Under the pieces are notes generated by a model. It made no database searches, was not told where the DNA came from, and saw only the letters and a program-made list of their open reading frames with translations. Positions 1,345 through 45,475 of a DNA stretch of 54,960 nucleotides are shown one piece after another (the first letter of the stretch is position 1; every line of letters begins with the position of its first letter). This stretch comes from Bacillota bacterium (GTDB lineage Bacteria > Sysuimicrobiota > Sysuimicrobiia > Sysuimicrobiales > Segetimicrobiaceae). A program made the translations under genes and the position numbers. The stretch covers positions 1-54,960 of the forward strand of contig JAJPJL010000024.1 of the NCBI GenBank assembly GCA_021324255.1, in the 5' to 3' direction.

Positions 1345-2216
1345 TTCGCTGCGAGGGCGTGACGTACGTCTATCAACGCGGGACGCCGTTCGAGGCGACC
1401 GCGATCGAGGACGTGTCCTTGGAGATCGCGGCCGGGGACGCCGTCGGCATCATCGGCGCCACGGGCTCGGGCAAGTCCACCCTGGTGCAGCACCTGAACG
1501 GCCTGCTCCGTCCCACCGCGGGGCGTGTGTATCTCGACGACGTCGACATCAACGCCCGCGAGGTGGACCGGCGGCGCGTGCGGCAGCAGGTGGGCCTGTT
1601 GTTCCAGTACCCGGAGCACCAGCTGTTCGAGGAGACCGTCACCGCGGACGTGGGCTTCGGCCCGCGGAACCTCGGCCTCGGGCCGGACGAGGTTCGCCAC
1701 CGGACGGCGAGGGCGCTCGCGCACGTGGGCCTCGATCCCGCGGTGTTCGGCCCGCGCTCCCCGTTCACGCTCAGCAACGGGGAAATGCGCCGGGTCGCGA
1801 TCGCCGGGCTCCTGGCGATGGAGCCCCGCATGCTGATCCTGGACGAGCCGACGGCCGGCCTGGATCCCGCGAGCCGGCGCGAGATCCTGGACCACATCAT
1901 GCGGCTGCGCAGCGCGAGGGGCCTGACGATCGCGCTGGTTTCGCACAGCATGGACGCCGTAGCCCGCCTGTGCCGGCGCGTCATCGTGCTGGACCGCGGC
2001 CGGGTGGTCGCGGAGGGCGCGACGCGCGACGTGTTCGCGGACCCGGGCCGGCTCGCCGCGCTGGGGCTCGGGGTGCCGCAGGTGGCCGAGTGCGCGCGCC
2101 TTCTGCGGGAGCGGGGCGTGCCGGTGAGGCCGGACGTGCTGACGGTGGACGAGGCGCGCCGGGCGATCCTCGACGCCCTGGCCGGCCGGCGGCCGGCGCC
2201 GAAGAACGTCCCATGA
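1341..2216 (+). CDS. ecfA2: ECF transporter ATPase EcfA2
   Basis: Second ATPase of the ECF module, 291 residues. It has Walker A GATGSGKST, Q-loop FQYPEHQ, Walker B MLILDEPTAGLDP and H-loop VSHSMD. The signature reads LSNGEMRR rather than the canonical LSGGQ, so the Gly and Gln that contact ATP are changed while neighbouring residues are kept. Asymmetric ATPase pairs with one degenerate site are common among ABC dimers, so this one may be partly non-catalytic; that is inference. It lies between ecfA1 (4-base overlap) and ecfT (7-base gap). Confidence 0.92.
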   Translation: MIRCEGVTYVYQRGTPFEATAIEDVSLEIAAGDAVGIIGATGSGKSTLVQHLNGLLRPTAGRVYLDDVDINAREVDRRRVRQQVGLLFQYPEHQLFEETVTADVGFGPRNLGLGPDEVRHRTARALAHVGLDPAVFGPRSPFTLSNGEMRRVAIAGLLAMEPRMLILDEPTAGLDPASRREILDHIMRLRSARGLTIALVSHSMDAVARLCRRVIVLDRGRVVAEGATRDVFADPGRLAALGLGVPQVAECARLLRERGVPVRPDVLTVDEARRAILDALAGRRPAPKNVP

Positions 2217-2223
2217 GGCGGGC

Positions 2224-3057
2224 GTGATGGACTTCCTGCGCGGGCTGATGCTCGGGCAGTACGTGCCGGCGGAGTCGCCGGTGCACCGCCTCGATCCGCG
2301 CACAAAAATCCTGGGGACGATGTGGCTCGTCGGGGTGCTGTTTGCGACGCGGTCCCTCGCCGGGCTGGTCGTCCTGACCGCGTTCCTCGGGGGCGTCCTC
2401 GCGGCGGGGCGCATCGCGCCCGCGTACGCTGTGCGGGGCCTCCGCCCGGTGTTCTGGCTCGTCGGGATCGCCGTGGTGTTTCAGGTCCTGTTCGGCGACA
2501 GCGGCGGCCACGTGCTGTTCCGGCGCGGGCCGCTCGTCGTCACGCGCGAAAACCTGGCCGCGGGCGCGTTCTACGGGTACCGGCTCATCCTGCTCGTCGC
2601 CGCGACGACCGTGATGACGTTTACCACGTCGTCGGTGGAGCTCACCGACGGGCTGGAGCGCCTGCTTCGGCCGTTCCGCCGCGTGGGCGTCCCGGCGCAC
2701 GAGCTTGCCCTGATGATGACGATCGCGCTCAGGTTTATCCCGACGTTGTTCGAAGAGACCGAGACCATCATGAAGGCGCAGATGGCCCGCGGCGCGGAGT
2801 TTGCCCGCGGCAGCCTGGTCGCCCGAGCCCGCGCGTTGATCCCGTTGCTGGTGCCGCTGTTCGTGGGCGCGTTCCGCCGGGCGGACGCGCTGGCGCTGGC
2901 GATGGAAGCCCGCGGCTACCGGGGCGGCGAGCACCGCACGCGGATGAAGGAGCTGCGCGTCGCCGTGCGGGACTACGTCGCCGCCGGCATGCTCCTGGTC
3001 GTCGCTGCGATCGTGCTCCTGCCGCCGTCCGTATGGCGGGCCGTCGCGGGCCGCTGA
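2224..3057 (+). CDS. ecfT: ECF transporter transmembrane subunit EcfT
   Basis: The 277-residue membrane scaffold that links the EcfA1/EcfA2 dimer to a substrate-specific S-component. The N-terminus YVPAESPVHRLDPRTKI is the EcfT hallmark. Several hydrophobic segments follow (around residues 35-75, 100-125 and near the C-terminus). The cytoplasmic coupling part shows MARGAEFARG and MEARGYRGG, matching the two A-R-G coupling motifs that dock on the ATPases. Start is GTG 2224, or ATG one codon later. It closes the ecfA1-ecfA2-ecfT operon and is 9 bases from truA. Confidence 0.93.
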   Translation: MMDFLRGLMLGQYVPAESPVHRLDPRTKILGTMWLVGVLFATRSLAGLVVLTAFLGGVLAAGRIAPAYAVRGLRPVFWLVGIAVVFQVLFGDSGGHVLFRRGPLVVTRENLAAGAFYGYRLILLVAATTVMTFTTSSVELTDGLERLLRPFRRVGVPAHELALMMTIALRFIPTLFEETETIMKAQMARGAEFARGSLVARARALIPLLVPLFVGAFRRADALALAMEARGYRGGEHRTRMKELRVAVRDYVAAGMLLVVAAIVLLPPSVWRAVAGR

Positions 3058-37720: not shown

Positions 37721-38028
37721 GAGTCGGTCGCGCACCCGCGAGCCTTGGCCGCTCGCGGAGCCGGCTGTTCCGTGTCTCGGGACGCGCCTCATCTCCTCCC
37801 CGTCAGACCGCACCGCGTCTCGCCGACGGGACCGGGCGTTTGGAGGATCGCCGGATGGCGGGCGCCCGCCCCCGGGTGGACTCGGCGGCAAGCGGTCTTG
37901 ATCCCGGAGTTCCTCGTCGGCCCCGCAGGACTCCTGTCGCTAAATAAAATGCCCGAAGTCTTGCGAGAATGACTTGGCTATGGTAAGCATGGTAGAAAAT
38001 CACCTGCCTTTCGGGGTGGAGGGACGAC

Positions 38029-38553
38029 ATGCGGCCACCGCTGTTCGTCCGTCCGCTCTCGTCCGGGCAGGTCGCGGCGCTGGAGGCGCGCTATCGACGG
38101 ACTCCTGTTCCGGCCGAGCGGACGCGCTGCCACATCGTCCTGTTGTCGCACCAGAGGCTGAGGCCTCCGGCGATTGCCGCGATTGTCCGGGTGCACCCGG
38201 ACACGGTTCGTCGGACGATCCGACGCTACAATACCGCTGGCCTGGCGGGGTTGCCCGACCGAGCCCGCTCGGGTCGCCCACCTACCATCACTCCCGCCTG
38301 GATCCGGCTGTTGCTGAACCTCGTCGAACAAGATCCGCAACGCGTCGGTGTCCATCGTACTGCCTGGACCGCCCCCGCTCTGGCCGCCTACTTGAGCGAG
38401 CAGACAGGCATCAAGGTCGGTCCGCAAGTGGTCCGCCGGCAGTTGCGCAAACATGGCTACACGCCGCGCCGCCCGACGTGGACGGTCCGCCATTTGGCTC
38501 GGCGCGATCCGGAGTATGCGTCAAAAAACGCCGCGCCGAGGCGCTGTTCCTGA
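38029..38553 (+). CDS. IS630 transposase, frame A (DNA-binding part)
   Basis: 174 residues in frame A. ATG 38029 follows GGAGGGACGAC. Helix-turn-helix segments: RLRPPAIAAIVRVHPDTVRR then TIRRYNTAGLAGL, and a winged domain with GRPPTITPAWIRLLLNLVEQ. This frame ends shortly after DPEYASKNAAPRRCS. The product may act alone as a DNA-binding inhibitor, or be continued into frame B by -1 frameshifting. Confidence 0.88.
   Translation: MRPPLFVRPLSSGQVAALEARYRRTPVPAERTRCHIVLLSHQRLRPPAIAAIVRVHPDTVRRTIRRYNTAGLAGLPDRARSGRPPTITPAWIRLLLNLVEQDPQRVGVHRTAWTAPALAAYLSEQTGIKVGPQVVRRQLRKHGYTPRRPTWTVRHLARRDPEYASKNAAPRRCS
38523..38529 (+). promoter_or_regulatory. -1 ribosomal frameshift site A AAA AAC
   Basis: The zero-frame codons TCA AAA AAC hold the canonical slippery heptamer A AAA AAC (38523-38529). 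Slipping one base back gives AAA AAA CGC and joins frame A at YASK to frame B at RRAEAL. Relatives of the family read DPEY--KK-R-EAL continuously, which supports fusion at this point. Confidence 0.75.
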
Positions 38554-39134
38554 GCCCGCCACCTCGGACGGATCTGTACGTGGAAGACGAAAGCGAACTG
38601 GCGTTGTTGCCGGCCTTGACGCGATGCTGGACCTTGCGTGGACGCCAGCGCAAGATCCCCGCCCCGGGGAAGAACCGCAAGCGCCATCTCTTTGCCGCCG
38701 TTGATTGGCGCGACGGCACGGCCTTCCGCCGCTACGCGGATCGCCGGGATGCTCGGACCTTCTGTGCCTTGGCCGAGACGTTGGTGTGGCGCACCCGCCG
38801 CCGGGGCCGCCGTGCGATGATCGTGCTCGACAATGCGGGCGTCCATCGCGCCGAGAAATCGCGCCTGGTGGCGGCCCTGCTTGACCGGCACGGCTCTTGG
38901 TTGACGTTGGTCTTCCCGCCGGCCTACTCGCCGGAACTTCAACCGTTGGACCACCTGTTCCGCGCGTGGCGCCGCGAGGTGACCCACAATCATCACCGGA
39001 CGAGCCTCGACGTGCTGCAGACCGACTCTGAGGCATTCTTCCATCGTCGCGCCAGGCGTCCGCAGCTCATCTTGCGCATGATTGGAAGCCCGTTTTTCCA
39101 TCGCATGATCAGGAGACGCACTCATGTTGCATGA
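38529..39134 (+). CDS. IS630 transposase, frame B (DDE catalytic part)
   Basis: Read in the -1 frame to the stop at 39134, about 201 residues after the slip; the whole fusion is about 368 residues. Catalytic residues: Asp in LYVEDESELALL, Asp in MIVLDNAGVHRAEKS and a third acid in SPELQPLDHLFRAWRRE. Most IS630 enzymes have Glu at that place (PELNPIE); here it is Asp, like Tc1/mariner DDD enzymes. It cuts and inserts at TA sites. It has no start codon of its own at the junction. Confidence 0.85.
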   Translation, partial: RRAEALFLSPPPRTDLYVEDESELALLPALTRCWTLRGRQRKIPAPGKNRKRHLFAAVDWRDGTAFRRYADRRDARTFCALAETLVWRTRRRGRRAMIVLDNAGVHRAEKSRLVAALLDRHGSWLTLVFPPAYSPELQPLDHLFRAWRREVTHNHHRTSLDVLQTDSEAFFHRRARRPQLILRMIGSPFFHRMIRRRTHVA

Positions 39135-39149
39135 GTTTTGTCACTTTAT

Positions 39150-39401
39150 TTAGGCGGCCTGGTTCGCGATGGTGCGCTCGTAGAGCGTTTCGGGCGCGAT
39201 GTCGGCCCCGTTCGGCCAGGCGACCGTGCCACCGTCCAGAAAGAAGCGCTGGAAGTACTGCGGGTCTGTGAGTGGCTCGAAGACGGGGCCCTCAAGCCAC
39301 GGTGAGAAGTCCACCGCGCCTTCCACGCCATCGGTGAACGCGAGGTGGATCGTGTAGCCACCGCGGTGCTCCGCGCGAACGACGGTCGGCAGCGACGGCA
39401 T
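39150..39401 (-). CDS. DUF2442 domain protein
   Basis: 83 residues from ATG 39401 with GGAGG upstream. DUF2442 core: VVRAEHRGGYTIHLAFTDGV then EGAVDFSPWLEGPVFEPLTD and the tail GADIAPETLYERTI. Function unknown; it commonly sits beside DUF4160 genes, as here. Its TAA stop (39150-39152) is formed partly by the TA duplication and partly by the last base of the IS630 element, so insertion occurred at the stop codon. Confidence 0.85.
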   Translation of the reverse strand: MPSLPTVVRAEHRGGYTIHLAFTDGVEGAVDFSPWLEGPVFEPLTDPQYFQRFFLDGGTVAWPNGADIAPETLYERTIANQAA

Positions 39402-39412
39402 CGAACACCTCC

Positions 39413-39673
39413 TCAGTCCAGCGGCGGGATCCGCTCCAGGGGTTCGCCGGCCTGCAAGCGGTTCCAGTTTGTCTCCAGCTATTGCCGGGATACGACCGCC
39501 CATTCTTTGAGCAGGCGCAACGCGGTCTTCGAGTGGAGAGCGCCGGCCAGGAGTTCGCCATCGAACGTGAACGTGGCCTGCTGCCCCTGGTACTCCGCGT
39601 GAAAGTGCGGGACGCCGTGCTCCCGGTAGAACATCCGGATCACGATGCCGAAGAAGACCGAAACGACCGGCAC
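39413..39673 (-). pseudogene. DUF4160 gene interrupted by an in-frame TAG
   Basis: The frame begins MPVVSVFFGIVIRMFYREHG then VPHFHAEYQGQQATFTFDGE, the DUF4160 hallmark (I-I-M--D---PHFHA-Y). It runs to WAVVSRQ, where TAG stands at 39479-39481. It then continues in the same frame LETNWNRLQAGEPLERIPPL to a TGA at 39413, the normal DUF4160 tail. The TAG occupies the place of a Gln-like codon (CAG to TAG). The truncated 64-residue product lacks the tail. It lies 11 bases before DUF2442, forming the usual pair. Confidence 0.82.
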
Positions 39674-40126
39674 GGATCAATTCTACCAGGATGGATGCGC
39701 CCGCGGCGGGCGCCGGCGTCGCGCCGCGTGCCGGTTCCGACATTGTAGGAGCGTCTGGTCCGGCAGGGCGCCTACCTGGGCGATCACGTCGCGCGGAGTC
39801 TGGGCGTGACGGTAGAGGCGGGCACACCGCGCCCGTAACGGGACCTGCGACCGTCGTGGTGCACGGTTACCCTCGGGAGCACCTGAGCCGCACCGTCCAT
39901 GAGCACGCCAATGAGGTCGCGGAGAGGCAGAACGGCGAGTCTGCGGTTCCAGGAGGGCTCTGGTCCGGCGGTGAGGGGCTCTGAAACAGGACGTGGAGTC
40001 CGGCTCCGCAGGAGGCTCTCGCCGGGTGACCCGAGCTGAATTGGGTCCGGTCGGCGGCTCGCCGCGCGGCGTCCGCGCGAGATGACGGGGGACAACAGGG
40101 CGATGGGTTCTTGAGCCGCATAGAAA
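39674..40126. other. Stretch without recognizable gene
   Basis: No gene family could be matched on either strand. Short frames have no ribosome sites of note. It separates the DUF4160/DUF2442 pair from the tRNA. Confidence 0.4.
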
Positions 40127-40197
40127 TGGGCCCGCCAGGTCTCGAACCTGGATCCGCCGGTTATGAGCCGGATGCTCTACCCTTGAGCTACGGGCCC
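40127..40197 (-). tRNA. tRNA with CAT anticodon (probably tRNA-Ile2)
   Basis: The minus strand folds into a cloverleaf: acceptor GGGCCCG/CGGGCCC, D-arm GCTC-AAGGGTA-GAGC, anticodon arm with loop CTCATAA (anticodon CAT), T-arm CCAGG-TTCGAGA-CCTGG, discriminator A. No CCA is encoded. One T-C mismatch closes the anticodon stem. The CTCATAA loop equals that of E. coli tRNA-Ile2, whose C34 is modified to lysidine to read AUA. Elongator Met is the alternative. Confidence 0.9.
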
Positions 40198-45400: not shown

Positions 45401-45475
45401 GGGCGAGTAGCTCAGCGGTAGAGCGCCTCGCTTACACCGAGGAGGTCGCGGGTTCGACCCCTGCCTCGCCCACCA
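45401..45475 (+). tRNA. tRNA-Val(TAC)
   Basis: Cloverleaf GGGCGAG/CTCGCCC, D-arm GCTC-AGCGGTA-GAGC, anticodon arm CTCGC-TTACACC-GAG region with anticodon TAC, T-arm GCGGG-TTCGACC-CCTGC, discriminator A and encoded CCA (45473-45475). A TATACT at 45386-45391 is a good -10 box. An integrase remnant begins close downstream, so this tRNA is a likely attachment site. Confidence 0.93.

Follow-up and report, generated by a model that had tools for sequence, protein, structure and literature searches.

A complete IS630-family insertion sequence with a candidate programmed -1 frameshift site and aspartate as third catalytic acid

We describe a complete IS630-family insertion sequence whose transposase is split over two overlapping frames, orfA and orfB, that meet at the slippery heptamer A_AAA_AAC. 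Taken as a whole, the evidence is best explained by a ribosomal -1 slip that would give the transposase from orfA and orfB, a reading to which we assign a probability of about 0.6. That the fusion is programmed, with ribosomal and transcriptional slippage taken together, we hold with considerable confidence. Since frameshifting has already been published for IS630 elements (PMC5009743; PMC3711429), the element is one more member of a known group; it adds to the recoding mode described for this family a deep-branching element with a clean A_AAA_AAC site.

The element and its two reading frames

The element occupies positions 37941-39152 of the window, by which we mean the whole 54,960-nt stretch of DNA analysed (68% GC), and measures about 1.21 kb including the TA at each end (Table 1). 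It belongs to the cut-and-paste insertion sequences of the IS630/Tc1/mariner group. A first-pass annotation of this DNA had correctly placed the two-frame content at 38029-39134, and the element proper is slightly larger. The terminal inverted repeats are imperfect and span about 25 bp; the ends of its relatives start with CTAAGTAC and follow the same pattern. Both ends of the window element read C-TA-A... and the joined flanks restore the tetranucleotide CTAG, the insertion target, so the TA was duplicated on insertion. Terminal inverted repeats, TA duplication and a CTAG target, all traits of the IS630 family, are thus present together, and a preference of IS630 for CTAG is stated in the title of Tenzen and Ohtsubo (1991), as cited in PMC2170065. 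Among 12 genomes of the host's family, no empty insertion site was found.

Insertion hit a minus-strand DUF2442 gene exactly at its stop codon, which reads TAG with the flanks joined and TAA with the element present, so that the DUF2442 protein is unchanged. A DUF4160 frame (39479-39673), overlapped by a 225-aa open reading frame call, lies just upstream of this gene, and the two likely form a two-gene pair. The window also holds tRNA genes at 45401-45472 (+) and 40127-40197 (-), the latter about 1 kb from the element.

Table 1. Features of the window element and slip sites of its relatives
Feature	Position in window	Strand	Remarks
IS630-family insertion sequence	37941..39152	+	C-TA at both ends, inverted repeats, CTAG flanks
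Left terminal inverted repeat, CTAAATAAAATGCCCGAAGTCTTGC	37940..37964	+	25 nt, 76% complementary to right arm
orfA (frame A), DNA-binding part	38029..38553	+	HTH_32, HTH_29, HTH_23; ATG to TGA, 174 aa without slip
GGAG, Shine-Dalgarno-like, candidate stimulator	38511..38514	+	8 nt upstream of heptamer; distance rule from PMC4066793
Slippery heptamer A_AAA_AAC, putative -1 recoding site	38523..38529	+	Same position as A5-A7 run and -1 split of relatives
orfB (-1 frame), DDE_3 catalytic domain	38529..39134	+	D187, D268, D308 (fusion numbering)
Third catalytic acid codon GAC, Asp308 of fusion	38949..38951	+	Glu in relatives
Right terminal inverted repeat	39129..39153	+	Reverse complement starts CTAAATAAAGTGACAAAACTCATGC
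DUF2442 gene region	39150-39827	-	Stop codon is insertion site
Rubrobacter slip site			CTC AAA AAA AGG; in L092 CTTC AAAAAAA GG
Microvirga slip site			CTC AAA AAA AGA
Roseomonas slip site			CTC AAA AAG GGG
Bipolaricaulota slip site			CTT AAA AAA AGC

The assignment to IS630 made in the first-pass annotation is borne out by the NCBIfam IS630 model NF033545, which scores the fusion at 191.6 bits and the separate halves at 93.7 and 90.2 bits, so that its cut-off of 100 bits is passed by the fusion and by neither half. Pfam finds HTH domains in frame A only and DDE_3 in frame B only (62.6 bits); the N-terminal HTH domains are therefore followed by an RNase H-like catalytic domain, in the order of the family. 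The GC content at codon position 3 stands at 0.77 for frame A ahead of the A-run and at 0.78 for frame B beyond the run; in the sliding profile the change of frame falls at 38449-38628. For the window copy itself a frame-aware alignment is a circular argument, whereas the GC3, domain and model evidence is independent of it. Phase, GC3 switch and domain split thus agree with the earlier observation that frame B resumes the family sequence in the -1 frame at the heptamer.

Frame A reads TCA AAA AAC at 38521-38529 (A38523-A38528, C38529), which sets A_AAA_AAC in the X_XXY_YYZ phase for a tandem -1 slip. A heptamer in zero-frame phase and an open downstream frame are both present: a -1 slip at this point leads to a 368-aa fusion ending at the frame B stop at 39134, with neither a stop codon nor a second shift across its 368 codons. 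In the whole 55-kb window there are two A6/T6 runs, one in phase at the homology-defined HTH/DDE junction and the other (4776) antisense within an unrelated dehydrogenase-like gene. Judged from the sequence, an in-phase A-run exactly at this junction is not expected by chance.

Conservation of the split and the route to the fusion

The element is single-copy in its own genome and has no close relative in its own phylum (43 genomes). Nothing above about 42% identity was found among 386 broad relatives, 298 genomes of the Microvirga family, 318 genomes of Alphaproteobacteria (the Microvirga class), 39 genomes of the Rubrobacter class, viral contigs, phages and plasmids. The best plasmid matches are Roseomonas elements, each annotated as two genes; a scan of the genome collection added elements from Microvirga, three Rubrobacter copies and one Bipolaricaulota element, and the search of the Rubrobacter class yielded further Rubrobacteria copies. 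In the frame-aware alignment all better-preserved relatives (Rubrobacter, Microvirga, Roseomonas, Bipolaricaulota) carry the -1 split at the same residue, and they do so on A-runs in Rubrobacter (four copies), Microvirga, Roseomonas and the more distant Bipolaricaulota element.

A comparison of the four Rubrobacter copies gives dN/dS of 0.10-0.19 for orfA and 0.09-0.14 for orfB at dS of 0.36-0.86, and both halves are under purifying selection. Because the split persists through this divergence in both halves, it has been maintained and is not a recent indel. Away from the slip, 38 of 48 lysine codons in the relatives are AAG; at the slip, AAA AAA is kept by all but one of the six relatives counted, and the exception, L092, aligns CAA AAA there yet has an A7 run. 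The programmed -1 recoding proposed in the first-pass annotation is therefore well supported, by the same split on A5-A7 runs in relatives and by purifying selection. Single-frame copies without an A-run, which would have pointed to an indel in this copy, did not appear among the relatives of the frameshift clade, all of which are split on A5-A7. In contrast, the exact heptamer is not supported as the conserved unit in place of an A-run: relatives have C_AAA_AAA_AGR or C_AAA_AAG_GGG instead.

These data bear on two other explanations of the frame change. The draft assembly consists of 142 contigs and homopolymer runs are error-prone, so a sequencing or assembly error has to be weighed; the same split nevertheless occurs in independent complete plasmid records and in other assemblies, the slip requires just a 6-base run, and we regard such an error as highly improbable. 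It also seems quite improbable that the copy is decayed and dead, its frame change being an indel or its Asp a missense change. Conserved relatives have their split at the same place, in the window copy it lies in slippery phase, neither half has lost its codon-position bias and the 368 codons are uninterrupted. Such decay would fit a single-copy element in which usually conserved residues deviate (N305Q, E308D, W311F), and it does occur in the group; the three substitutions are, however, conservative. Among the decayed copies, some Rubrobacter elements are broken and the Microvirga copy L038 has its second catalytic Asp replaced by Gly (VAWGNAS, at about 2274-2290), which probably makes it inactive.

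If the fusion is programmed, it could be made by the ribosome or by RNA polymerase slipping on the A-run, with an extra A in the mRNA. For the window copy the ribosome is favoured, on sequence grounds, because the heptamer is in phase and the run is short. A_AAA_AAC is of low efficiency in E. coli, yet it is used by IS elements (PMC4066793). Slippage by the polymerase, which we consider rather unlikely here, is used by a Roseiflexus IS630 element (PMC5009743) and was inferred for HTH_Tnp_IS630 from the occurrence of both shift directions (PMC3711429); it would also account for a distant Spirosoma element whose split on A7 leads into the opposite frame, and for the fact that the relatives have in common the A5-A7 run and not the heptamer phase, which equally counts against the ribosome. 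Six A residues, on the other hand, fall short of the 8-9 reported as productive (PMC1088944), and the window run lies in the exact X_XXY_YYZ phase. A ribosomal origin is further weakened in that the window copy is single and without a close relative, the selection data coming from relatives only. A search for a downstream RNA stimulator among pseudoknot-free folds found no stable structure above shuffles (z-scores of 0.28 to 1.24 in the window, mixed in relatives). The GGAG upstream of the window heptamer stems from codons for a conserved Pro-Glu pair, and most relatives lack it.

In the ribosomal reading, which we prefer, most translation would end at 38553 and yield the HTH protein (orfA) only. 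A minority of ribosomes at TCA AAA AAC would shift by -1 on A_AAA_AAC and proceed in frame B, and the slipped product would be a 368-aa transposase with both DNA-binding and catalytic domains. A tandem slip at AAA AAC predicts the junction peptide ...DPEYASKNRRAEA... in this product. A low yield of the fusion would keep transposition in check, and orfA by itself may be a repressor. The transposase would then cut the CTAA-type ends, insert into CTAG and duplicate the TA. In this scheme we infer the slip itself, its ribosomal nature, the yield, repression by orfA and activity with Asp as the third acid.

The third catalytic acid

The third acid had rightly been read as Asp: it is D308 in the motif SPELQPLD, and the triad is spaced D187-80-D268-39-D308. 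Glu is the usual third acid of the IS630 family and is found in every frameshifting relative; the 39 residues between second and third acids compare with 36 in the Rubrobacter relative, which ends in Glu. Glu is a usual and not a defining trait, because another IS630-type protein has Asp and because the related mariners have Asp as a rule (PMC4054914). A degenerate motif run over 386 broad genomes gave Asp in one genome versus Glu in 18, which is a rough ratio only as the motif misses the window's own variant. The only other Asp element found (loci L101/L103) belongs to a different IS630 branch and has no A-run. It encodes an IS630-type transposase with LNPVDHLW (G021:C11, about 1500-3000) in another genome from the same order, and it is doubtful that the transposase frame is continuous near residue 157. 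The suggestion that frameshifting and a DDD triad together mark a subgroup is accordingly not supported, as the frameshifting relatives all have Glu and the other Asp element stands apart; among the relatives retrieved, in a search far from exhaustive, none besides the window element combined the two features.

As Asp is the normal third acid of the related mariners (PMC4054914; PMC2170065), an active enzyme with Asp308 is possible by analogy, and an active Asp copy would mean that the IS630 active site tolerates a mariner-type triad. Asp308 may also be a private missense change, or the copy may be dying. We give little credence to a distinct active IS630 lineage that has both -1 frameshifting and an Asp triad like that of mariners, in which the change from Glu to Asp would be independent of eukaryotic mariners. 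The predicted model of orfB (mean pLDDT 78, from six sequences only) is RNase H-like and matches Sleeping Beauty, Mos1 and Metnase, the first two being nearest, and a PDB sequence search with the fusion found no real relative. An origin from eukaryotic mariners, considered on account of the 39-residue spacing, was rejected because the extra residues sit in a local insertion within the IS630 alignment.

Place among IS630 and mariner elements

In the tree, the window protein, the frameshift clade and single-frame IS630 groups part from one another at an unresolved node; more distant IS630 elements have a single frame. A single frameshift clade uniting the window copy with the Roseomonas/Rubrobacter clade was considered and is not resolved by this tree, which requires at least three label changes over all frameshifted elements. 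Splitting at the HTH/DDE linker therefore probably arose, or was lost, several times, as far as sequences can tell. That different IS630 branches are repeatedly split at the same linker suggests that expression control favours the HTH/DDE junction.

Two distant IS630 elements were noted in passing. One, on a Spirosoma rhododendri plasmid (L035, about 1050-1070), has the opposite (+1) frame split on its A7 run at the same linker and lies apparently within a cation:proton antiporter gene annotated as two pieces. The other (L099, G080:C102) is in two frames, with A8 at the HTH/DDE linker, and is a probable further recoded member.

The frameshifted IS630 elements reported previously (the HTH_Tnp_IS630 clusters of PMC3711429, and PMC5009743) likewise have their HTH and DDE halves in two frames with an A-rich joint, and -1, the direction of the window copy, is the commoner one among them; the window copy differs in its A6C in canonical ribosomal phase and its Asp third acid. 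The elements of Roseomonas plasmids, Rubrobacter MAGs and Microvirga sp. BSC39 (L032, L033, L038-L041, L092) have in common with it the same-residue -1 split (DPEYA..K), CTA ends, a length of about 1.1-1.2 kb and a CTAG-type target, but they are only 33-42% identical to it, carry A5G4 or A7 in place of A6C, and have Glu as third acid. ISY100 and IS630 proper resemble the window element in their two N-terminal HTH motifs, DDE domain and TA duplication, and unlike it have a single open frame and a Glu third acid. Mariners (Mos1, DD34D; plant elements, DD39D), finally, have an RNase H-like fold and an Asp third acid as the window element does, but theirs is a eukaryotic lineage whereas its Asp is set in an IS630 background, and the likeness is most simply taken as convergent.
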